In this document: piece by piece, positions 5,427 to 23,606 of the stretch
How the letters are laid out: each line of letters begins with the position of its first letter
Position numbering within the stretch: the first letter of the stretch is position 1
Origin: Candidatus Gastranaerophilales bacterium
Lineage (GTDB): Bacteria > Cyanobacteriota > Vampirovibrionia > Gastranaerophilales > Gastranaerophilaceae
DNA length: 26,757 bases
Assembly (NCBI GenBank): GCA_944323945.1
Contig: CALUUL010000024.1
Span: 1-26,757 of the forward strand
Direction of reading: 5' to 3'
The notes under the pieces: model-generated
The model's input: only the letters and a program-made list of their open reading frames with translations
Told to the model about the DNA's origin: nothing
Database searches by the model: none
Program-made: the position numbers and the translations under genes

Positions 5427-7298
5427 ATGCAAATCAGACCAGAAATTAAAGAAAAAATAGTACTTGCGTTAGATGTTGATACACCAGAACAAGCAAAACA
5501 ATTAATTACTGAGCTTAAAGATTATGTTGGTATATTTAAAGTCGGCTTGCAGATGTATACAGGTAACGGCTATGAAATTTTTAACTTTATGAAAGAACAA
5601 AATATAAAGTTCTTCTTTGATGTTAAGCTCCATGATATACCGAATACTGTGGCAAAAGCATCAGAAAATATAATCAGAAACGGTGCCTCATTTTTTAATC
5701 TTCATACAACAGGTGGCGAAGAAATGATGAGAATGGCTCAAGAATCAGCAAGAAAAACAGCAAAAGAACTTGGTAAAGAAAATCCTATGATACTTGGTGT
5801 TACTGTTTTGACGAGTATAAGTGAAGAAAGTTTGCAAAAAGAACTTAAAGTTCCTTATAAACCGAATGAATATGCTATTCATTTGGCTTTGATGGCAAAA
5901 AATGCAGGTTTGGATGGTGTTGTTGCAAGTGTTTGGGAGGCTAAGAAAATTAAGCAGGTATGCGGTAAAGACTTTAAAGTTCTATGCCCCGGCATAAGAC
6001 CTGATTGGTCAAATAAGAATGATCAAAAACGTCTTGCTACACCAAGTATTGCAATAAAAGAAGGTGCTGATTATTTGGTTATAGGAAGGGCCGTTACAAG
6101 TGCAGAAGATAGAGTTAAAGCAATTCAAATGATATACGAAGAAATTGAAAATGCAATGCTTACTCAAAATAAATCTTATGCGGTTTCAAAAGGTAAATTA
6201 ATTCTTGAAAACGGCATGATTTTTGAGGGTGAATCAATTGGTGCAGATGGAACTTCATATGGCGAGATTGTATTTAATACATCAATGGTAGGTTATCAAG
6301 AAATACTTACAGACCCTTCTTATGCCGGTCAAACAATAGTTATGACATATCCTGAAATAGGTAATTACGGAATTAATAAAGATGATTTTGAATCAGGAAG
6401 AATTCACGCTAAAGGTTTTATTGTAAAGAATATGTGTGAACATGAATCACATTATAAAAGCGCATTACCTTTGTCAGAATATTTAAAACAAAATAATATA
6501 GTAGGCTTAAAAGGAATAGATACAAGACATCTTACTCAAATCATAAGGAATTATGGTGCAATGAATTGTGCTATAACAACAGGTGATATTACTCCTGAAA
6601 TAAAAGAAAAGATGAAAGAATACAAAATAAGTAAAGATATTACAATGGAAGTAACTACTTATAAATTAGAAAAATATTCAGGAACGCGAATAAAGCTTGC
6701 AATTATAGATATGGGTATAAAAAAGAGTATACTTGAAAACTTCAAAGCTTTAAATTGTGATATTACGGTTTTCCCAGCAGATGCAAAAGCTGAAGATATT
6801 CTAAATGAAAATCCTGATGCTGCACTTATCTCAAATGGACCTGGGAATCCGGAAGACGCAAAACAAGCTATAGAAACGGCAAAAGAATTATTAGGTAAAT
6901 TACCTTTATTTGGAATTTGTCTTGGACATCAAATAATATCACTGGCATTAGGAGCAAAAACATATAAACTTAAATACGGTCACAGAGGCGGAAATCATCC
7001 TGTAATGAATATGGAAACAAATGAAATATTTATTACTGCTCAGAATCATAGTTATGCTGTTGAGTCTAATTCTCTTCCTGCTGATGTAAAAACAATATTC
7101 ATAAACTTAAATGATAATACTATAGAAGGAATTAGTTGTGAAAAATATAAGATAAATACGGTTCAATTCCATCCTGAATTAACAGCAGGTCCATATGATG
7201 CAAATAAAGTTATATCAAGCTGGATCGAAAAGGTAGAGAAAGAGAAAAAGCTTTTTGTACAGCAGTATGAAAGTTTGAGAAAGTACTTGAAATTATAG
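5427..7298 (+). CDS. pyrF-carA: Fusion protein: OMP decarboxylase (PyrF) + carbamoyl-phosphate synthase small subunit (CarA)
   Basis: One uninterrupted 623-codon frame encodes two enzymes. Residues 1 to about 240 are a type I orotidine-5'-phosphate decarboxylase, with the charged catalytic network in DVKLHDIPNT (Asp65, Lys67, Asp70), CPGIRPDW and the phosphate-binding GADYLVIGRAV. Residues about 250-623 are a full CarA: an N-terminal domain (ENGMIFEGESIG onward, with MVGYQEILTDPSYAGQ) and a glutamine amidotransferase domain with FGICLGHQ (nucleophile Cys498), His582 and Glu584. Each half has the family's usual length (about 240 and 360-380), so neither is degenerate. The join is near residue 243, where an internal ATG (6156) follows no convincing ribosome binding site. 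The fusion links the last step of UMP synthesis to the ammonia-producing half of the first; carB follows after 12 bases. Confidence 0.93.
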   Translation: MQIRPEIKEKIVLALDVDTPEQAKQLITELKDYVGIFKVGLQMYTGNGYEIFNFMKEQNIKFFFDVKLHDIPNTVAKASENIIRNGASFFNLHTTGGEEMMRMAQESARKTAKELGKENPMILGVTVLTSISEESLQKELKVPYKPNEYAIHLALMAKNAGLDGVVASVWEAKKIKQVCGKDFKVLCPGIRPDWSNKNDQKRLATPSIAIKEGADYLVIGRAVTSAEDRVKAIQMIYEEIENAMLTQNKSYAVSKGKLILENGMIFEGESIGADGTSYGEIVFNTSMVGYQEILTDPSYAGQTIVMTYPEIGNYGINKDDFESGRIHAKGFIVKNMCEHESHYKSALPLSEYLKQNNIVGLKGIDTRHLTQIIRNYGAMNCAITTGDITPEIKEKMKEYKISKDITMEVTTYKLEKYSGTRIKLAIIDMGIKKSILENFKALNCDITVFPADAKAEDILNENPDAALISNGPGNPEDAKQAIETAKELLGKLPLFGICLGHQIISLALGAKTYKLKYGHRGGNHPVMNMETNEIFITAQNHSYAVESNSLPADVKTIFINLNDNTIEGISCEKYKINTVQFHPELTAGPYDANKVISSWIEKVEKEKKLFVQQYESLRKYLKL

Positions 7299-14151: not shown

Positions 14152-14182
14152 TTGACATTCATTTATATTTATGGTCTATTAT
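14152..14182 (+). promoter_or_regulatory. Candidate adhE promoter
   Basis: A perfect TTGACA (14152-14157) is followed after 19 bases by TATTAT (14177-14182). The overlapping TATAAA at 14180 is an alternative -10 box with a poorer distance. The site lies between the upstream terminator and adhE, so it is the obvious place for adhE initiation. No clear Rex palindrome is visible beside it. Confidence 0.5.
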
Positions 14183-14219
14183 AAATAGAGATTTTAATCA
14201 CGAAAGGACTTGAAACATT

Positions 14220-16871: not shown

Positions 16872-16882
16872 TAGAAAAAACT

Positions 16883-16915
16883 AAAAGAGGAACGTAGAAA
16901 TGCGTTCCTCTTTTT
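16883..16915 (+). terminator. Strong intrinsic terminator after adhE
   Basis: AAAAGAGGAACG (16883-16894) pairs over 12 bp with CGTTCCTCTTTT (16903-16914) around an 8-nt loop, and T continues after the stem. It separates adhE from the rex-hydrogenase cluster transcriptionally. Confidence 0.88.
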
Positions 16916-16926
16916 ATTTTATAAAC

Positions 16927-16954
16927 TTGTTTTTTTTATATAATTTATTATAAA
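16927..16954 (+). promoter_or_regulatory. Candidate promoter of the rex-hydrogenase operon
   Basis: TTGTTT (16927-16932) and TATAAA (16949-16954) are 16 bases apart, shortly after the adhE terminator and 28 bases before the rex ATG. A second TATAAT overlaps at 16939 without a partner -35 box. A Rex consensus operator is not recognisable; the only local dyad is a short ATGA/TCAT pair downstream. Confidence 0.4.
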
Positions 16955-16981
16955 TGAGTTTAATTCATAAAAGGTTATGAG

Positions 16982-17611
16982 ATGGAGAAGAATCTTCCTG
17001 ATAAAGTAATAAATAGGTTAACTTTATATCATAGTATTTTGACTGATTACATAGAAAAAAATATTGAGTATATTTCAAGTCCTCAAATAGCAGAGTTATT
17101 ACATGTTGATAATACTCAGGTTCGAAAAGATATTGGTCTTTTAAATTATAAAGGAAAGTGTAAAGTAGGATATAAAGTAAAAGAACTGAAACTATTGATA
17201 GAAGAAACACTAAAATTTAAAAAAGTAAAAACGGCATTTATAGTTGGTGCTGGTAATTTAGGTATGGCATTAGCAAAATATGATAATTTTGAAGCATATG
17301 GTTTTAATATTTATGCATTATTTGATAATAGCCCCGAAAAGGTTGGTACAAATATAAATGGAAAGAATGTGTTTCATTTAAAAGATTTTCCAAAGATAGC
17401 AGAAAAAAATGATGCAAAGATTGTAATTTTGACAGTACCGCGGAAAAATGCACAAGAAGTTACAGATTATATTGTAAAGGCAGGAATTAGATATATATGG
17501 AATTTCACACCTTGTGTATTATCGGTTCCCAATAATGTTCAAGTTTGGAATGAAAATTTAATAGGGAATTTTTTGCAGTTCACGGTAAATCATGGAGTAG
17601 AGGATAATTAA
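16982..17611 (+). CDS. rex: Redox-sensing transcriptional repressor Rex
   Basis: Rex dimers bind DNA when NADH/NAD+ is low and release it when NADH rises, derepressing fermentative and hydrogenase genes. The 209-residue product begins with a winged helix (residues 5-60, with SSPQIAELLHVDNTQVRKDI as the recognition part). A Rossmann domain follows, opening with the dinucleotide motif GAGNLG at 89-94 and continuing through YALFDNSPEKVG. Length and layout are standard. The start has AAGG seven bases upstream. It lies between adhE and the hydrogenase genes, and its stop overlaps the next start (TAATG), so it is the first gene of the hydrogenase operon and probably controls it, adhE and itself. 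Confidence 0.94.
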   Translation: MEKNLPDKVINRLTLYHSILTDYIEKNIEYISSPQIAELLHVDNTQVRKDIGLLNYKGKCKVGYKVKELKLLIEETLKFKKVKTAFIVGAGNLGMALAKYDNFEAYGFNIYALFDNSPEKVGTNINGKNVFHLKDFPKIAEKNDAKIVILTVPRKNAQEVTDYIVKAGIRYIWNFTPCVLSVPNNVQVWNENLIGNFLQFTVNHGVEDN

Positions 17612-17841
17612 TGGTAAAAGAAATAAAAATATGTATGGGCAGTGCTTGCTTTGCTAGAGGGAATGCAGATAATCTAAGATTTATAGAGGATTATATAAAG
17701 AAAAATAATTTAAATGCTGAAATAGAAATATATGGTGAGCGATGTAAAAATCTTTGCGAAAAAGGGCCAAATATTGAAATAGATGGTACAATTTATTATG
17801 AGATGACACCTGAAAAAATTATAGAGATATTAAGGAAATAA
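17611..17841 (+). CDS. Small [2Fe-2S] thioredoxin-like ferredoxin (NuoE-like)
   Basis: The 76-residue product is a stand-alone thioredoxin-fold [2Fe-2S] protein of the kind that forms the C-terminal part of NuoE/HndA. The four ligands are Cys8, Cys13, Cys45 and Cys49 (CMGSAC ... CKNLC), followed by the usual strand IEIDGTIYYEMTPEKI. It would shuttle electrons or report redox state to the hydrogenase-like sensor encoded directly downstream. It overlaps rex by one base, has AGAGG upstream of its ATG, and is three bases from the next frame. A near relative occurs at 20772, ahead of the second hydrogenase. Confidence 0.88.
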   Translation: MVKEIKICMGSACFARGNADNLRFIEDYIKKNNLNAEIEIYGERCKNLCEKGPNIEIDGTIYYEMTPEKIIEILRK

Positions 17842-17844
17842 AAA

Positions 17845-19569
17845 TTGAATAACATATATCCTGTATATACATTAAAAAATGAATGTCATGATTGTTATAA
17901 ATGTATTAGAGAATGTCATGTAAAGGCAATAAAAATACAAGATAACAGTGCCTATGTGATAGGAGAAAGATGTGTTGCTTGTGGTCATTGTGTAATGGTA
18001 TGTCCATCAGGTGCTAAAAGAGTCAGAAATGATATAGATAAAGTAAAAAAATTGTTTTTGCAGAATAAAAAAGTATATGTTTCTTTAGCACCAAGTTGGG
18101 TTGGAGTATACAATGTAAAAAAAGAAAAAATTATTTCAGCGTTAAAAAAATTAGGCTTTGAAGGAGTTAGTGAAACAGCATTAGGTGCACAGGAAGTATC
18201 TATAGAGTGTGCAAAAATTATAAATTCATCTGATAAAAATGAAATGCTAATATCAAGTGCTTGTCCTGTTATTGTTGATTATATAAGAATGTATAAGCCA
18301 AAATTTGCCAAAAATATTGTACCTATTGTTTCTCCAGCATTGACTCATGCAGGTTTGCTTAAGAAAACATTTGGGGACGATATTGCAGTTGTATTTATTG
18401 GACCTTGTATAGCAAAGAAGAAAGAGTCAGATTCCCATCAAGAATTAATTAACGCCTCTTTGACATTTGAAGAATTAAATCTTTGGTTAAAAGATGAAGA
18501 TATAAATCTTCATGATATTGAAGAAATTGAAGGATCTGAGTTTGTACCGAAAGGAGCATATGAAGGATCACTTTATCCTATTGAAGGGGGGATGAATGAA
18601 ACAATTCGAAAAGTCGGGATAGATGAGAATAAAGTTTCTTTGATAAGCATAAGTTCGATAAATAATTTTGATAAAGCATTAGATGGTATAGAAGAAGATA
18701 AGCTAACAAGAAAAATATTTATTGAAGCATTGGGTTGTGAAGGTGGATGTGTAAATGGTCCTTGTCTATCAACAGAAAGAGGTATTATTGCAGTAACGTC
18801 TGATGTTTTAACGACAACAAAATACCGAGATAAAGTTCCAACAGAGCCTGAAGTTGTAGTAAGTGAAAATTATAAACCCCAACCTGTTGAAAAACGTAAA
18901 TATACTATAGAACAAATAGATGAAGCTTTAAAAAGAATAAGTAAACATTCACAGGAAGATGAATTAAATTGTAGCGGATGTGGGTATTCCACGTGTCGTG
19001 ATTTTGTAAATGCTTTGATAGCAGGAGATGCAGAAACCTCTATGTGTGTATCTTATATGCGAAAAATAGCAGTAAGAAAAGCAGCAGCATTGGTTAGATG
19101 TATGCCGGCAGCTGTTGTTATGGTAGATAAAGATTATAATATATTAGAAACTAATGATGCTTTTCTAAAGATGTTTTGTTCCGATATGTATGATGTTTTT
19201 TCATCAAGAGAAGAAGGTCTAAAAGGTGCTGCAATTGAAAGAATTGTTCCATTTGGTGATATATTAAAGATCGCATTGCGTTCAGGACAAGATATACACA
19301 AAGAACATTATGCAATAAATGATAAATTATATGATATAAGTGCATTTACAATAGAAGCTGGTGAAATAGCCGGTGCAGTAATAACAGATGTCACGAAATC
19401 TGAAATGGATAGAGAAAAGATAGCAAAGAAAGCAAGGGATGTAATTGCCAAAAATATAGCAACTGTACAAGAAATAGCTTGTCTTTTAGGCGAACATATG
19501 GTTGAAACTGAAGTATTATTGGATTCAATAGCAAAAGACTATGAAAGTAATACTGAAGAGGAAAAATAA
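17845..19569 (+). CDS. Putative sensory [FeFe] hydrogenase with PAS domain (HydS-like)
   Basis: The 574-residue chain has four parts. Two [4Fe-4S] ferredoxin motifs come first (Cys14/17/20/24 and Cys43/46/49/53). An H-cluster domain carries ligands Cys140, Cys188, Cys298 and Cys302. A [4Fe-4S] motif of the CSGCGYSTC type is at 376-384 with Cys401, and a PAS domain lies at about 415-515 (MVDKDYNILETNDAFLKMF). The first H-cluster motif reads SSACP where catalytic enzymes have TSCCP, so the proton-relay Cys is Ala139. The known putative sensor HydS of Thermotoga has the same change. A role in sensing H2 or redox state rather than bulk H2 turnover is inferred. It uses a TTG start with AGGA eight bases before, and the phosphatase gene overlaps its stop (TAATG). 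The organisation resembles the hfs cluster of Thermoanaerobacterium. Confidence 0.88.
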   Translation: MNNIYPVYTLKNECHDCYKCIRECHVKAIKIQDNSAYVIGERCVACGHCVMVCPSGAKRVRNDIDKVKKLFLQNKKVYVSLAPSWVGVYNVKKEKIISALKKLGFEGVSETALGAQEVSIECAKIINSSDKNEMLISSACPVIVDYIRMYKPKFAKNIVPIVSPALTHAGLLKKTFGDDIAVVFIGPCIAKKKESDSHQELINASLTFEELNLWLKDEDINLHDIEEIEGSEFVPKGAYEGSLYPIEGGMNETIRKVGIDENKVSLISISSINNFDKALDGIEEDKLTRKIFIEALGCEGGCVNGPCLSTERGIIAVTSDVLTTTKYRDKVPTEPEVVVSENYKPQPVEKRKYTIEQIDEALKRISKHSQEDELNCSGCGYSTCRDFVNALIAGDAETSMCVSYMRKIAVRKAAALVRCMPAAVVMVDKDYNILETNDAFLKMFCSDMYDVFSSREEGLKGAAIERIVPFGDILKIALRSGQDIHKEHYAINDKLYDISAFTIEAGEIAGAVITDVTKSEMDREKIAKKARDVIAKNIATVQEIACLLGEHMVETEVLLDSIAKDYESNTEEEK

Positions 19570-20726
19570 TGTTCATAGATGTAGGATGCAGTCAAGAAAA
19601 AAAATATAATCAGAATGCTTATGGCGATTATTTTATTTCAAAAAGATATAAGGATAATGGTCGAGTTATAGGTATATTGTCAGATGGATTAGGAAGCGGA
19701 ATAAAAGCAAATATTTTAGCAAGTATGACTGCTACTATGCTTTTGAAGTTTATAGAAGCTCAATCTGATATTAAAGTAGCCTGTGAAACGATTATGAATT
19801 CCTTACCTGTATGTAAAGTAAGAAAAATCAGCTATTCTACATTTTCAGCAATAGACTGTGATGAAGAAGGTAATGCAAAAATAGTTGAAGAGGGTAATCC
19901 ACAGTTCTTATGGATTAGGAATAATCAAATTCTCAATCCGGAAGAAAGAATAATTACTTCAAAAACATTTCCAAATCGTCATATGCATTTATATCATATA
20001 AAGTTAGAAAAGGATGATAGAATAATTTTTTGTTCTGATGGAGTAACTCAAGCCGCATTAGGAACTAAAGAATTAAGATTAGGTGTTAGAAGAGAAGGTC
20101 TAATAGAGATAGTACAAAATAAATTAAAAGAGAAACCATTTATATCTTCAGATGAACTAACAAAGTATATTATCAGGCAGATTGAATTAATAGAACCCGA
20201 TCACAAGTTGAAGGATGATACCTCTGTAGTATGTTTCTATTTTAGAGAACCAAGAAAATCTATAGTATTTACAGGTCCTCCATATGACATGGAACAAGAT
20301 GCCTTATATGCTAAAAGTTTTTATAGTTTTAACGGTAAAAAAGCAATTGCAGGAGGAACAACAGCGAATCTTATAGCAAGAGAATTAAACTTGGAAATAG
20401 AAACAGACAGAAACCTAAATGTAGGTAAACTCCCGGGAATTTCGTATATGAAAGGTGTTGATTTAATTACAGAAGGTATTCTTACATTGACGAAAACTTT
20501 AGAGTATTTAGAGAAAGGTATTGTTGGAAATGATGCTGCAGGTAAATTAATTAATTTTCTTTTAGATAGTGATGAAATTAAATTTATGGTTGGAGTTAAA
20601 TTAAATCAGGCTCATTATAATCCTAATATGCCTGTAGAAATTGAAATAAGAAGAAATGTTGTTAAAAGAATAGTTGAAATTTTAGAAGAGAAATATACTA
20701 AAAAAGTAGATGTAAGATATATTTAA
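19569..20726 (+). CDS. SpoIIE/PP2C-type serine/threonine phosphatase, partner of the sensory hydrogenase
   Basis: The 385-residue product has a PP2C-like phosphatase domain in its first ~235 residues. Metal-binding motifs are ILSDGLGSG (Asp39), FCSDGVTQA and the C-terminal KDDTSVVCFYF, in the SpoIIE/RsbU order. The last ~150 residues (from about FTGPPYD) form a separate domain with AGGTTANLIARELN, found with this phosphatase type beside hydrogenase genes; I do not know its role. There is no membrane segment, unlike SpoIIE itself. The gene begins within the stop of the sensory hydrogenase behind GAGGAA, so the two are translationally coupled. It would act on a phosphorylated target such as an anti-sigma antagonist, but no such target is encoded in the window. 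Confidence 0.87.
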   Translation: MFIDVGCSQEKKYNQNAYGDYFISKRYKDNGRVIGILSDGLGSGIKANILASMTATMLLKFIEAQSDIKVACETIMNSLPVCKVRKISYSTFSAIDCDEEGNAKIVEEGNPQFLWIRNNQILNPEERIITSKTFPNRHMHLYHIKLEKDDRIIFCSDGVTQAALGTKELRLGVRREGLIEIVQNKLKEKPFISSDELTKYIIRQIELIEPDHKLKDDTSVVCFYFREPRKSIVFTGPPYDMEQDALYAKSFYSFNGKKAIAGGTTANLIARELNLEIETDRNLNVGKLPGISYMKGVDLITEGILTLTKTLEYLEKGIVGNDAAGKLINFLLDSDEIKFMVGVKLNQAHYNPNMPVEIEIRRNVVKRIVEILEEKYTKKVDVRYI

Positions 20727-20771
20727 AAATATGATAAAATAATTTTATTGGATGTTTGTTAAGGGGAATAT

Positions 20772-21035
20772 ATGGAAAAAATAGAAGTTAGAATATGCTC
20801 GGGAACTACTTGTTTTGTTATGGGGAGTTCTTTTTTGAATGAATTATATGATATAATTCCACAAAAATATGGTGATAAAGTTATTGTTAAACCAAGTTTA
20901 TGTTTAGGACAATGTTCTTCGAGTGATAAACATTCAAAAGCTCCATATGTAAAGGTTGATGGAGAAGTTGTTTCATCTGCTACAATAGAAAAGGTTTTAT
21001 TGGCTATTGAAAAAAAGGTTGGTGAAAATGAATAA
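20772..21035 (+). CDS. Second small [2Fe-2S] thioredoxin-like ferredoxin
   Basis: The 87-residue product has ligands Cys9, Cys14, Cys44 and Cys48 (CSGTTC ... CLGQC) in the NuoE-like thioredoxin fold. APYVKVDGEVVSSATIEKV provides the closing strand and helix. It is clearly related to the protein at 17611 but has a longer middle and a Lys/Glu tail. AAGGGG lies six bases before its ATG. Its last codons overlap the start of the group-B-type hydrogenase by eight bases, which argues for a direct electron-transfer partnership with that enzyme. A 45-bp AT-rich gap separates it from the phosphatase gene, without a convincing terminator. Confidence 0.87.
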   Translation: MEKIEVRICSGTTCFVMGSSFLNELYDIIPQKYGDKVIVKPSLCLGQCSSSDKHSKAPYVKVDGEVVSSATIEKVLLAIEKKVGENE

Positions 21036-22473
21036 TAATAGTCAATCTATACATATAAAAAGAGATATTTTAATTAGGCTAGTTCAAGCTTTTGATTCAG
21101 ATGAGTTTGAGAAAAATACAGCATCAATTCCTTATCAAATGCGTCCAAAAGATTGCGAGGTGCCATATAGATGTTGTATATATAAAGAACGTGAAATTAT
21201 AAAAGACAGAATAATTGCAGATATGGGTTTTTCTCTTGAAAATCTTGATGAATCTGAAAAATTGGAAGATTTTGCACATCAATCACTAGATAGAAAAAAT
21301 ACAGAAGAAAATCCATTGACGATTATAGATGCAGCTTGTAAGGGATGTGTTCCTTCAAGAGTATATGTAACAGATTTGTGTCAAGGTTGTGTCGCCCGTT
21401 CATGTGAAAAAACATGTAAATTTGGTGCTATAGAAATAGCTGGTGGAAAAAGTAATATAGATGCATCAAAATGTAAGAATTGTGGTATGTGTATTAGTGC
21501 TTGTCCATATAATGCAATTGTACGTTTGATTGTTCCTTGTGAGCAAGTTTGCCCAGTGGGTGCTATTTCAAAAGGTGATAACGGTACTGCTGTTATAAAT
21601 TTTGAAAAATGTATATCTTGTGGTAAATGCGTTGCAGCTTGTCCGTTTGGTGCTGTTAATGAAAAAAGTCAATTAATTGATATTTTGAAGGCAATGAAAA
21701 TTGGGAAAAAAGTTGTAGCAATGTTTGCCCCTGCTATTGCTGGTCAATTTCCGGGAAATATTTTTCAGCTAAAATCGGCAATGATTAAAGCCGGATTTTA
21801 TGATGTTATAGAGGTTGCACAAGGAGCTGATGTTACAACAAGGAAAGAATCTGCTGAATTCATTGAAAGAATGAAAAAGGGTGATTCATTTATGACAACT
21901 TCTTGTTGTGCAGGATACAATAATCTTATAGAAAAACATCTGTCTGAAATAAAACCATATGTTTCAGATACCAAAACACCATTATTCTATACTGCAGAGA
22001 TAGTAAAAGAAAAATATCCTGATTCAATAACTGTATTTATAAGTCCTTGTGTTGCAAAGAGAAAAGAAGTACAAGGAAATGATAATGTAAATTATGTAAT
22101 GAATGCAGATGAACTTGGTGCTCTTTTTGTTGGTAGAAAAATTGAAATTTTAGAGATGGAAGAGTCGAAATACCAATATGAAAGTTCCAAACAAGGTCGG
22201 AATTATGGAGTGACAGGTGGAGTTGCAAGTGCGGTTAATTCGTTGTTACCTTCTGATGTAAAGGCAAAACCATGTTATATTGATGGTTTAACGAAAGATT
22301 CTATAAAACAATTGAAAAAATATGCAAAAGAAGGACTTTGTCCAGATGGTAATTTAATAGAGGTTATGTGCTGTGAAGGTGGTTGTATTGGTGGAAATTC
22401 AACAATTTCAAATCCGAAAATCGCCAAAAAAATAATAAATAATCTTCTTGAAAAAAGTAGTGATTTAAAATAA
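21028..22473 (+). CDS. [FeFe] hydrogenase, group B type
   Basis: The 481-residue enzyme reversibly reduces protons with ferredoxin-derived electrons. An N-terminal region with an unusual Cys-rich block (CKGC at 104, CQGCVARSCEKTC at 118-130) precedes two [4Fe-4S] motifs (Cys149/152/155/159 and Cys195/198/201/205). The H-cluster domain follows, with TSCCAGY at 291-297, SPCVAKRKE (Cys341) and EVMCCEGGCIGG (Cys449, Cys453). Both Cys of TSCC are kept, so catalysis is expected, unlike the sensor at 17845. The motif variants (Ala for Pro after TSCC; GN instead of GG at the end) match group B rather than the well-studied group A enzymes. ATG at 21028 is preferred over an upstream TTG at 21007 because AAGG and GGTG precede it. 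Maturases HydE/F/G are not in the window. Confidence 0.9.
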   Translation: MNNNSQSIHIKRDILIRLVQAFDSDEFEKNTASIPYQMRPKDCEVPYRCCIYKEREIIKDRIIADMGFSLENLDESEKLEDFAHQSLDRKNTEENPLTIIDAACKGCVPSRVYVTDLCQGCVARSCEKTCKFGAIEIAGGKSNIDASKCKNCGMCISACPYNAIVRLIVPCEQVCPVGAISKGDNGTAVINFEKCISCGKCVAACPFGAVNEKSQLIDILKAMKIGKKVVAMFAPAIAGQFPGNIFQLKSAMIKAGFYDVIEVAQGADVTTRKESAEFIERMKKGDSFMTTSCCAGYNNLIEKHLSEIKPYVSDTKTPLFYTAEIVKEKYPDSITVFISPCVAKRKEVQGNDNVNYVMNADELGALFVGRKIEILEMEESKYQYESSKQGRNYGVTGGVASAVNSLLPSDVKAKPCYIDGLTKDSIKQLKKYAKEGLCPDGNLIEVMCCEGGCIGGNSTISNPKIAKKIINNLLEKSSDLK

Positions 22474-22556: not shown

Positions 22557-23606
22557 ATGACTAATAGTTACGTTGATACTAATTTATGTAATTTCACAGA
22601 TCAGATAATGGATATCTGGGCGGCAAGACGTACTGAAAAGAAGTATTTTCCAGATTCGGCTCTTTCAGGAAAAATAGGTAAAGATACACTTCAAAAAACT
22701 ACAGAGTTAAAATCTTCTGCACAAAAAACAAATGGAGAAAATTCGTTTGCAACTTCTGATGGAAAAGATGATGGCAAAATATCGTTTAAAGAAAAAATGC
22801 AAAATTTTGGAGAAGGATTAGTAAAACCAATAAAAACAATATTTTCGTCTCCTAAAAATATGCTAATAACTGCTGCTTCAGTTGCTGGAGGTGCTGCTTT
22901 GATTGCTTTGACAGGTGGTGCAGCTGCCCCTGTTATGGTTGCTGCAGGTGTTGTTGGCGGAACTGTTCAAGTTGGCAAGGGTATTTATAAACAATTAAAT
23001 GCTAAAACAGATAATGAGGCCAAACAAGCCTGGCAGGAAATGGGAACAGGTACCTTTGCAGTTGGAGTTTCTGCAGCTGGTGCAAAGTCTTCATTAAAGG
23101 CAGCAAAAGTTAGTGCTTCAAAAGATATACCAACAAGCAAGGCCGTTTGGCAATGTATGGCTGGTATTCCCAAAAATATAAAAACTGGCATAAAAAATAT
23201 TTATTCGAAAATGCCAGTTAAAAAAGTTATTGCTACTGCGCCTAAGCAAAAAGTTCCGGATACAGGTTCTTTTATATTGAATCCGATGAAAATACAAGGT
23301 CAATCTATACCAAATGTTTCTCAAACAAGTTTTGTATTGCCTAATCCTAAAGAAAGCTTAGCTTTATCTCAACCCAAGGAAGTGTTATTGACATTGCCTA
23401 GTCACAAAGCAAGCTTGGCATTACCACAGCCAAAACCTATTTTGGCTTTACCGGAATCACCAAAAAGACTTGCATTACCGGAACCACCAAAAAGACTTGC
23501 ATTACCAGAACCTAAAATAATAACTTCAAATAAAAAATTAGGAATATTATCAAAATTGAAGAAATTCCTAAATGTTTTTGGCTTGTTTCTTCCTAAAAAG
23601 AACTAA
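22557..23606 (+). CDS. Hypothetical protein with EF-hand-like loop, Gly/Ala-rich hydrophobic segment and LALPEP repeats
   Basis: The 349-residue product is not a family I can name. Residues 1-65 are polar. Residues 68-79 (DGKDDGKISFKE) match the 12-residue EF-hand loop at positions 1, 5, 6, 8 and 12 but carry Lys at position 3. NFGEGLVKPIKTIFSSPKN leads to a Gly/Ala-rich hydrophobic stretch at about 102-142, long enough for two membrane passes or a glycine-zipper hairpin. A second small Ala/Gly-rich patch is at 165-185. Residues 259-320 hold about seven degenerate copies of a Leu-Ala-Leu-Pro-x-Pro-Lys unit, the last two nearly identical in DNA. The C-terminus is basic and hydrophobic. It has no N-terminal signal peptide. 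The ribosome binding site is weak. It could be a membrane-associated surface or scaffold protein of this lineage. It converges on the next gene with a 4-nt overlap. Confidence 0.75.
   Translation: MTNSYVDTNLCNFTDQIMDIWAARRTEKKYFPDSALSGKIGKDTLQKTTELKSSAQKTNGENSFATSDGKDDGKISFKEKMQNFGEGLVKPIKTIFSSPKNMLITAASVAGGAALIALTGGAAAPVMVAAGVVGGTVQVGKGIYKQLNAKTDNEAKQAWQEMGTGTFAVGVSAAGAKSSLKAAKVSASKDIPTSKAVWQCMAGIPKNIKTGIKNIYSKMPVKKVIATAPKQKVPDTGSFILNPMKIQGQSIPNVSQTSFVLPNPKESLALSQPKEVLLTLPSHKASLALPQPKPILALPESPKRLALPEPPKRLALPEPKIITSNKKLGILSKLKKFLNVFGLFLPKKN
23457..23510 (+). repeat. Two-copy 27-bp tandem repeat inside coding sequence
   Basis: Positions 23457-23483 and 23484-23510 are direct 27-bp copies with two mismatches. 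They encode the nine-residue unit PPKRLALPE and its SPKR variant. They are the most recently duplicated part of the longer degenerate Leu-Ala-Leu-Pro array at 23331-23516. Confidence 0.85.

Follow-up and report, generated by a model that had tools for sequence, protein, structure and literature searches.

A conserved adhE-rex redox operon with a putative sensory [FeFe] hydrogenase module behind it in Candidatus Gastranaerophilales

The hfsABCD operon of Thermoanaerobacterium saccharolyticum encodes HfsB, a HydS-like protein with a PAS domain, together with the serine phosphatase-like HfsC and the HydA2-like HfsD (PMC11837493). Deletion of hfsB raised both adhE expression and ethanol formation, and Rex was considered as the link, although how HfsB affects adhE and the ethanol yield was left open (PMC5707799); one Rex box was predicted ahead of hfsABCD, and adhE was predicted to have two (PMC5886521). 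In the hydS-hydA2 arrangement of Ruminococcus albus, for which control by H2 was proposed, HydS is encoded near a second ferredoxin-type hydrogenase and a serine/threonine signalling protein (Zheng et al. 2014, as reported in citing papers). In this study, which was based on a computational analysis of a 26,757-nt stretch of DNA from a Candidatus Gastranaerophilales bacterium (contig CALUUL010000024.1, hereafter the window), we describe a cluster in which adhE and rex stand immediately ahead of a module of this kind, and we compare it with related loci and genomes of the order.

Six genes on the plus strand, rex, trx1, hydS, a SpoIIE-type phosphatase gene, trx2 and hydB, span positions 16982-22473, all with family support (Table 1). 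A preliminary description of the window had read Rex, a HydS-like hydrogenase, a phosphatase and a catalytic hydrogenase in one cluster, with a [2Fe-2S] protein ahead of each hydrogenase, and this gene content was borne out, with trx1 before hydS and trx2 before hydB. It had overlooked adhE, which ends 110 bp upstream of rex on the same strand, and it mentioned neither the second phosphatase domain nor the precedents published as hfsABCD and hydS-hydA2. The genes of the run that begins with rex and ends with the phosphatase gene overlap their neighbours by one base or sit 3 nt apart. The hydS-phosphatase-hydrogenase core is of a known kind, as in hfsBCD of Thermoanaerobacterium and hydS-hydA2 of R. 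albus. Like hfsABCD, the window groups a HydS-like hydrogenase, a serine phosphatase and a second [FeFe] hydrogenase, and a functional link between adhE and Rex has been discussed for the hfs genes; unlike it, the window has adhE, rex and the module side by side, whereas adhE of T. saccharolyticum has a locus tag (Tsac_0416) distant from that of the hfs operon (Tsac_1550). In the window, it is trx1 that precedes hydS. The R. albus system belongs to another phylum and has an adjacent kinase (PMC5707799), whereas in the window there is a phosphatase and no kinase, and adhE-rex leads. Searches of the open-licence literature gave no report of adhE, rex and hydS arranged in this way, nor of any sensory hydrogenase from Gastranaerophilales; in excerpts of two genome papers on the order, [FeFe] hydrogenases are mentioned and no sensory one is. 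Within the literature searched, what is new is the contiguous order of adhE, rex and the module, its spread in the order, the evidence on the operator, the lack of visible partner kinases and an unnamed phosphatase domain.

The locus is a real, conserved and sensible redox operon with a putative sensor. Its gene content and linkage, the motif losses in HydS, a conserved box at adhE in relatives and the lack there of any sign of the usual kinase partners can be read directly from the DNA. We interpret it as an operon of adhE and rex in Gastranaerophilales to which a hydrogen module like hfsBCD is joined on the downstream side, and we regard the full mechanism, taken with all of its steps, as close to an even call that leans slightly to the doubtful side. 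Rex would read the NADH/NAD+ ratio and repress from an operator that overlaps the point where adhE transcription starts; on a build-up of NADH, AdhE would be made, forming ethanol and oxidising NADH. Partial read-through of a hairpin between adhE and rex would yield smaller amounts of Rex, of the HydS-phosphatase pair and of the ferredoxin-type HydB, which would evolve H2. HydS, with its altered H-cluster surroundings, may read H2 and relay its state through its C-terminal iron-sulphur and PAS domains and its end helix to the phosphatase, which would alter the phosphorylation of some target protein and shift electrons between H2 and ethanol. In this scheme, we infer the binding of Rex, the transcription start, the read-through, the sensing of H2, the contact between HydS and the phosphatase and the direction of the effect. 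One published observation weighs against it, namely that rex expression was higher in high-ethanol strains of T. saccharolyticum, which the authors regarded as contrary to a simple link through Rex (PMC5707799). Because adhE, rex and the module are side by side, the link between ethanol and hydrogen control that the Thermoanaerobacterium work discussed becomes testable with a few purified proteins and short pieces of DNA. In the ecology of the gut, it bears on how these bacteria choose whether to make ethanol or to supply partners with H2.

Table 1. Positions of the cluster genes, protein domains and candidate control elements in the window
Feature	Position	Strand	Evidence
adhE promoter: TTGACA (14152-14157), 19-nt spacer, TATTAT (14177-14182)	14152-14182	+	read by eye
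Candidate Rex operator TAGAGATTTTAATCACGA, asymmetric, one intact half-site; first base 34 nt from the adhE ATG	14186-14203	+	
adhE, bifunctional aldehyde/alcohol dehydrogenase, 883 aa	14220-16871	+	PF00171, PF00465, PF25137
Hairpin with T-rich tail, terminator or attenuator, probably partial	16883-16914	+	14-pair stem
rex, NAD(H)-responsive repressor, 209 aa	16982-17611	+	NF003994 221 bits (cut-off 130)
trx1, thioredoxin-like [2Fe-2S] protein, 76 aa	17611-17841	+	PF01257 34.8 bits (cut-off 24.8); Cys 8, 13, 45, 49
hydS, putative sensory [FeFe] hydrogenase, 574 aa, TTG start	17845-19569	+	PF02906 163 bits, PF04060 34.8 bits
PAS domain of HydS, residues 421-518, then a conserved long helix	19105-19398	+	PAS_9 and PAS_8 matches
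SpoIIE/PP2C-type Ser/Thr phosphatase gene, 385 aa, 1-base overlap with hydS	19569-20726	+	PF07228 54.9 bits (cut-off 25)
Phosphatase C-terminal alpha/beta domain, residues 230-385	20256-20723	+	no family match
trx2, thioredoxin-like [2Fe-2S] protein, 87 aa	20772-21035	+	PF01257 24.2 bits, just below the cut-off of 24.8; Cys 9, 14, 44, 48
hydB-type monomeric [FeFe] hydrogenase, group B1, 481 aa	21028-22473	+	TIGR04105 507 bits (cut-off 450)

The Rex protein carries an N-terminal DNA-binding domain (PF06971) and a Rossmann domain (PF02629), and its closest solved relative is 3wg9 (E 6e-34). The host is Candidatus Gastranaerophilales, and HydS has matches of 96-97% in loci whose titles read Candidatus Gastranaerophilales or Ca. 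Avigastranaerophilus. The gene order adhE-rex-trx1-hydS-spoIIE-trx2-hydB is conserved in related loci. Among 42 loci that were found by a HydS match, two of which end inside hydS, a rex homologue lies directly upstream of the module in 21 and was not seen in 18, while three contigs (L005, L010 and L037) begin too near the module to judge; the phosphatase gene follows hydS in all 40 loci whose DNA extends beyond hydS. Because of these counts, the association of hydS, the phosphatase gene and rex is not a matter of chance. A sample of 146 genomes from the order gave a HydS match in 103, of which 98 were at E 5.3e-220 or better, a Rex match in 132 and an AdhE match in 131. Rex is encoded less than 1 kb from HydS in 16 of the 98 genomes, co-directionally behind adhE in eight and divergently in the other eight, a neighbourhood that would not be expected by chance in 2-Mb genomes, and the coupling of Rex to the HydS cluster that the preliminary description had claimed is supported to this extent. 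Against a general coupling stand the remaining 82 genomes, in which no rex neighbour was seen, perhaps partly because of contig ends. AdhE has Rex at a distance of up to 1 kb in at least 31 genomes, in 29 of them on the same strand with adhE first and in two divergently; this is a lower bound, as 45 AdhE matches entered the count out of the 146-genome sample. From these neighbour counts, adhE-rex is the wider-spread unit in the order and the hydrogen module behind it is the rarer addition.

Statements on genome content rest on related genomes and not on the window's own. In 19 of them (23 minus those titled Endomicrobium, Desulfovibrio, Lentisphaerae and Heliobacteriaceae), rex is single-copy except in G010, whose two copies each follow an adhE. 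In G007 and G019 (loci L099 and L100), rex is followed by trx2-hydB, separately from the hydS-phosphatase pair, so that within the order rex meets hydS in two geometries, and a third geometry joins it to trx2-hydB. A quick tree of HydS from the window and the locus set (40 rows, of which 20 were labelled adhE-rex-hydS, 13 without rex and seven unlabelled) requires four changes of the adhE-rex-hydS label, two of them forced by well-supported branches; the arrangement has therefore been gained or lost more than once. A shuffle test of the labels on this tree shows their clustering alone, to which near-copies contribute a part. The module also occurs in metagenome-assembled genomes (MAGs) titled Endomicrobium and Desulfovibrio (L030-L033), and L030 retains adhE-rex ahead of it. 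These MAGs share the isolate prefixes Kf353 and Nm470, which would fit either a transfer within one habitat or misbinning.

The evidence for a Rex operator lies at the adhE promoter. A box like TTGTGAAATAAATCACAA was found upstream of adhE in all 20 hand-chosen genomes in which adhE and rex lie apart; TTGTKAWN4WTMACAA was present at no more than one mismatch in every one of these 20 upstream pieces (shuffle mean 0.2), and 19 of them hold the stricter GTGA form. Among 28 genomes with adhE-rex, the box was found in five at up to one mismatch (0.48 expected) and in 11 at up to two (3.5 expected), and many adhE-rex genomes carry the asymmetric form TAGAGATTTTWWTCACGA in place of the fuller palindrome. 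This form is present once each in 24 of 185 fetched loci, three of the 24 repeating DNA of other loci, and it always lies 31-35 nt ahead of an AdhE-like start; the window has it at 14186-14203. A search for TNGTGAWN4WTCACNA in 12 genomes gave nine distinct places, five of which precede adhE (G008, G010 twice, G011 and G023); of the others, those in G003 and G019 lie within long open frames, one in G013 lies at a frame edge, and the fourth is in G009. The reversed form of the motif gave four places. In 28 of 48 adhE upstream pieces, for which no shuffle control was run, the best box starts 3-6 nt past a hexamer like a -10 element, and this is the position of a repressor. In the window, the adhE promoter as read by eye has a 19-nt spacer and is not listed by a promoter scan that admits spacers of 16-18 nt only. 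The window's own box, with three mismatches, is not significant by itself and counts against the reading when taken alone, as it was equalled in 109 of 400 shuffles. That one half-site is weaker in operons which include rex suggests a switch that is softened and regulates itself.

The palindrome at adhE could instead belong to a regulator of the Crp/Fnr family, with rex merely neighbouring the hydrogenase module. TTGTGA-N6-TCACAA also resembles the CRP-type consensus, a Crp/Fnr-like protein was found above the cut-off in five of 14 chosen genomes, and the box precedes adhE in G068, where no Rex match was found; these observations weigh against Rex. However, the fuller box occurs in seven of nine tested genomes without a Crp match at cut-off level (G008, G010, G058, G068, G083, G106 and G129), whereas the five genomes with such a match (G001, G003, G005, G009 and G021) show only degraded boxes at adhE. 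The repressor position of the box and the at least 29 genomes in which rex follows adhE at no more than 1 kb also speak for Rex, and we consider the Crp/Fnr alternative improbable. A clostridial Rex box (TTGTTAA-N4-TTAACAA) near rex or adhE in the window was rejected, as the search for it gave only scattered matches with three mismatches, within genes as well as outside them. By eye, the adhE upstream pieces of L146-L160 show a second imperfect palindrome (ttgtaaa....tacactt) that overlaps the -35 element of many adhE promoters and is perhaps a further repressor site.

The same boxes bear on where the controlled unit begins. The preliminary description had placed rex at the head of the module and proposed a Rex site at 16916-16981; in the whole gap before rex (16872-16981), the best match to a Rex-type box has four mismatches, and adhE precedes rex and is linked to it across the order. 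Since the box evidence points to the adhE promoter, the operator is more likely to lie there, and the controlled unit is more likely to begin with adhE than with rex, as far as can be judged from sequence. Boxes also occur in the gaps between divergent rex and trx1 genes, two of eight having one at up to one mismatch (shuffles 0.1) and five of eight at up to two (1.24). In 20 chosen stand-alone hydS modules, no box was found at up to one mismatch (shuffles 0.18) and three at up to two (3.3), which weighs against the idea that Rex regulates the module in general. Given this lack of enrichment and the 82 genomes without a rex neighbour, Rex control of the hydrogen module is at best lineage-specific.

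A further point against a single adhE-rex transcript is the strong hairpin between the two genes. The segment 16872-16985 folds with a z of -5.75, which none of 200 shuffles matched, and a hairpin of 10-14 pairs recurs in all 17 related loci with an adhE-rex gap of at least 60 nt, of which L012 is without the T run. It is conceivable that this hairpin with its T-rich tail is a true terminator and that rex to hydB form a transcription unit of their own, regulated separately from adhE, as the 67 nt between hairpin and rex in the window suffice for a weak promoter. In L006 and L008, however, rex starts about 20 nt or less past the hairpin, in the short-gap loci L016, L030 and L039 there is no hairpin and adhE and rex almost abut, and no Rex-type box lies ahead of rex. 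We find a separate unit rather unlikely, and rex would be the first gene of a unit only if the hairpin terminated completely. Damped read-through of the hairpin is the simplest reading of adhE-rex transcription.

In its sequence, HydS bears the hallmarks of group C (M2f), the putative sensory [FeFe] hydrogenases. A pair of N-terminal CX2CX2CX3C motifs (residues 14-24 and 43-53) is followed by the H-domain, in which the H-cluster loops read SACP (A139), GPC (G186) and EALGC (L296), and by a C-terminal CX2CX4CX16C motif (Cys 376, 379, 384 and 401). By alignment to 8a6t, A139, G186 and L296 replace the proton-path cysteine and two flanking methionines; they are invariant in all 14 aligned HydS sequences, which take in Lentisphaerae- and Victivallales-titled ones at 45-46% identity. 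Both the CX2CX4CX16C spacing and the loss of the proton-transfer cysteine mark putative sensory subclasses (PMC8163306). Thermotoga maritima HydS likewise has a PAS domain, Ala at the position of the proton-transfer cysteine (C299) and Gly at that of M353 (PMC10055695), whereas at the place of Met497 the window HydS has Leu rather than Ser, as in TamHydS (PMC8163306). The sensory type named in the preliminary description is thus supported by these marks and by the adjoining phosphatase and output hydrogenase, while H2 sensing itself remains putative.

The PAS domain and the sensory role are the weaker parts of this reading. PAS_8, with a cut-off of 21.8 bits, scored 20.0 on the full-length protein and 22.5 on residues 406-574, and direct physiological evidence that hydrogenases of this type act as sensors is scarce (PMC8924675). 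The HydS model shows PAS-like strands followed by a helix (517-548); it is of moderate quality, with a mean predicted local distance difference test score (pLDDT) of 69.7 and blocks of 73-86 over residues 421-520 and 54-71 over 521-570. The 50 best matches of a fold search with the model were [FeFe] hydrogenases, so the search speaks to the hydrogenase part only. HydS might also be a slow metabolic hydrogenase, or it might exchange electrons with the second hydrogenase through the [2Fe-2S] proteins; the phosphatase would then act independently, and H2 would not be sensed. Such a role would agree with the retained cysteines of the H-cluster loops and with the two [2Fe-2S] proteins of the cluster, and the sensory role is itself termed putative in the literature (PMC8924675). 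On the other hand, it does not account for the fixed replacement of the proton-path cysteine and both methionines, for the PAS-like stretch and long helix in the C-terminal part, or for a phosphatase gene that follows hydS in 40 of 40 loci whereas hydB sits elsewhere in at least two genomes. A metabolic HydS is, in our view, distinctly unlikely.

The phosphatase resembles those of the SpoIIE/RsbU type of PP2C in its phosphatase-domain fold and its metal-binding aspartates (Asp 20, 39, 157, 216 and 217), which are invariant in the alignment. It differs from them in an extra conserved C-terminal domain, in which TGPP, GGTTA, TEG, N346 and H349 are invariant among 34 aligned HydS-type phosphatases and are placed where successive strands end, as residues of an active site or a ligand site would be. 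A Pfam search with this domain at E up to 5 gave no match for the copies of the window or L033 and one chance-level match for that of L037, and a profile search of solved sequences gave one match in PDB at chance level (E 0.75). The phosphatase model has a predicted template modelling score of 0.86, with pLDDT of 56-60 in blocks 281-290 and 341-360; among the matches listed in two structure comparisons of the whole model, all were to the phosphatase domain. The missing match does not show a new fold, and no family can be named. Among the best 120 of 1575 matches to the C-terminal domain, stand-alone copies were mostly short and like phosphatase fragments, with uninformative names. In two short proteins a matching stretch is joined to another domain, a thioredoxin-like [2Fe-2S] one in P0206 and a sigma-54 activator in P0261; these could be real fusions or assembly errors.

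The preliminary description had called the signalling branch open for want of a phosphatase target and an opposing kinase in the window. In the 19 related genomes, no small HATPase_c_2 anti-sigma kinase was seen, again unlike SpoIIE/RsbU systems, and the HydS-linked phosphatase is the sole match to PF07228 (the SpoIIE family) in each of the 19. HATPase_c_2 exceeded its cut-off in two genomes, in frames of 535 aa (G006) and 247 aa (G008, a histidine kinase by eye); weaker matches elsewhere, in frames of at least 242 aa, were not read one by one, nor was the G006 frame. A Hanks kinase was found above the cut-off in one genome, with weaker matches in four more. STAS matches occur in 16 of the 19 genomes (none in G006, G009 and G013), many of them within frames of 530-580 aa. 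The search for an opposing kinase that the preliminary description had suggested thus gave no small anti-sigma kinase in these relatives. G001, a close relative, encodes a receiver-STAS protein (L107 1378-2367) and a 92-aa STAS protein (L075 3853-4131), both possible signalling parts. As targets of the phosphatase, these were set aside: both lie outside the cluster and, by eye, have no Ser at the position of the usual phosphosite. Neighbours of the pair gave no candidate target either, as none is shared among L013 and L034, which have hydS-spoIIE without hydB, and L031 and L033, two of the three Desulfovibrio-titled loci.

Since the phosphatase is the sole SpoIIE-family protein in all 19 genomes and no small anti-sigma kinase accompanies it, ordinary sigma-factor partner switching is unlikely, and no classical anti-sigma switch is visible in these sequences. 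Gaps in MAGs might hide a kinase gene in one genome, hardly in all 19. The sensing of H2 may then bypass partner switching altogether, with an orphan phosphatase driven by HydS and a C-terminal domain that is either the real output or a third, metabolite input; we offer this as a speculative extension that is less likely than the operon mechanism. If it held, the locus would be a self-contained circuit in which Rex weighs NADH, and H2 and a third signal are added, to split electrons between ethanol and H2. The locus points to an unnamed conserved domain, and its signalling phosphatase is one for which the customary kinase is missing from view.

The remaining observations concern the output hydrogenase and the rest of the window. 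The H-cluster loops of HydB read SCCA, SPC and EVMCCEGGC, and its start is best placed at the ATG at 21028, in preference to the listed TTG at 21007. Behind hydB, positions 22557-23606 encode a 349-aa protein without a Pfam match that has proline-rich repeats close to its end, and homologues of it (55-68% identity) follow hydB in L001-L004, L007, L009 and L011. Further upstream, amid pyrimidine genes, a single 623-aa frame at 5427-7298 fuses an orotidine-phosphate decarboxylase to the small chain of carbamoyl-phosphate synthase.

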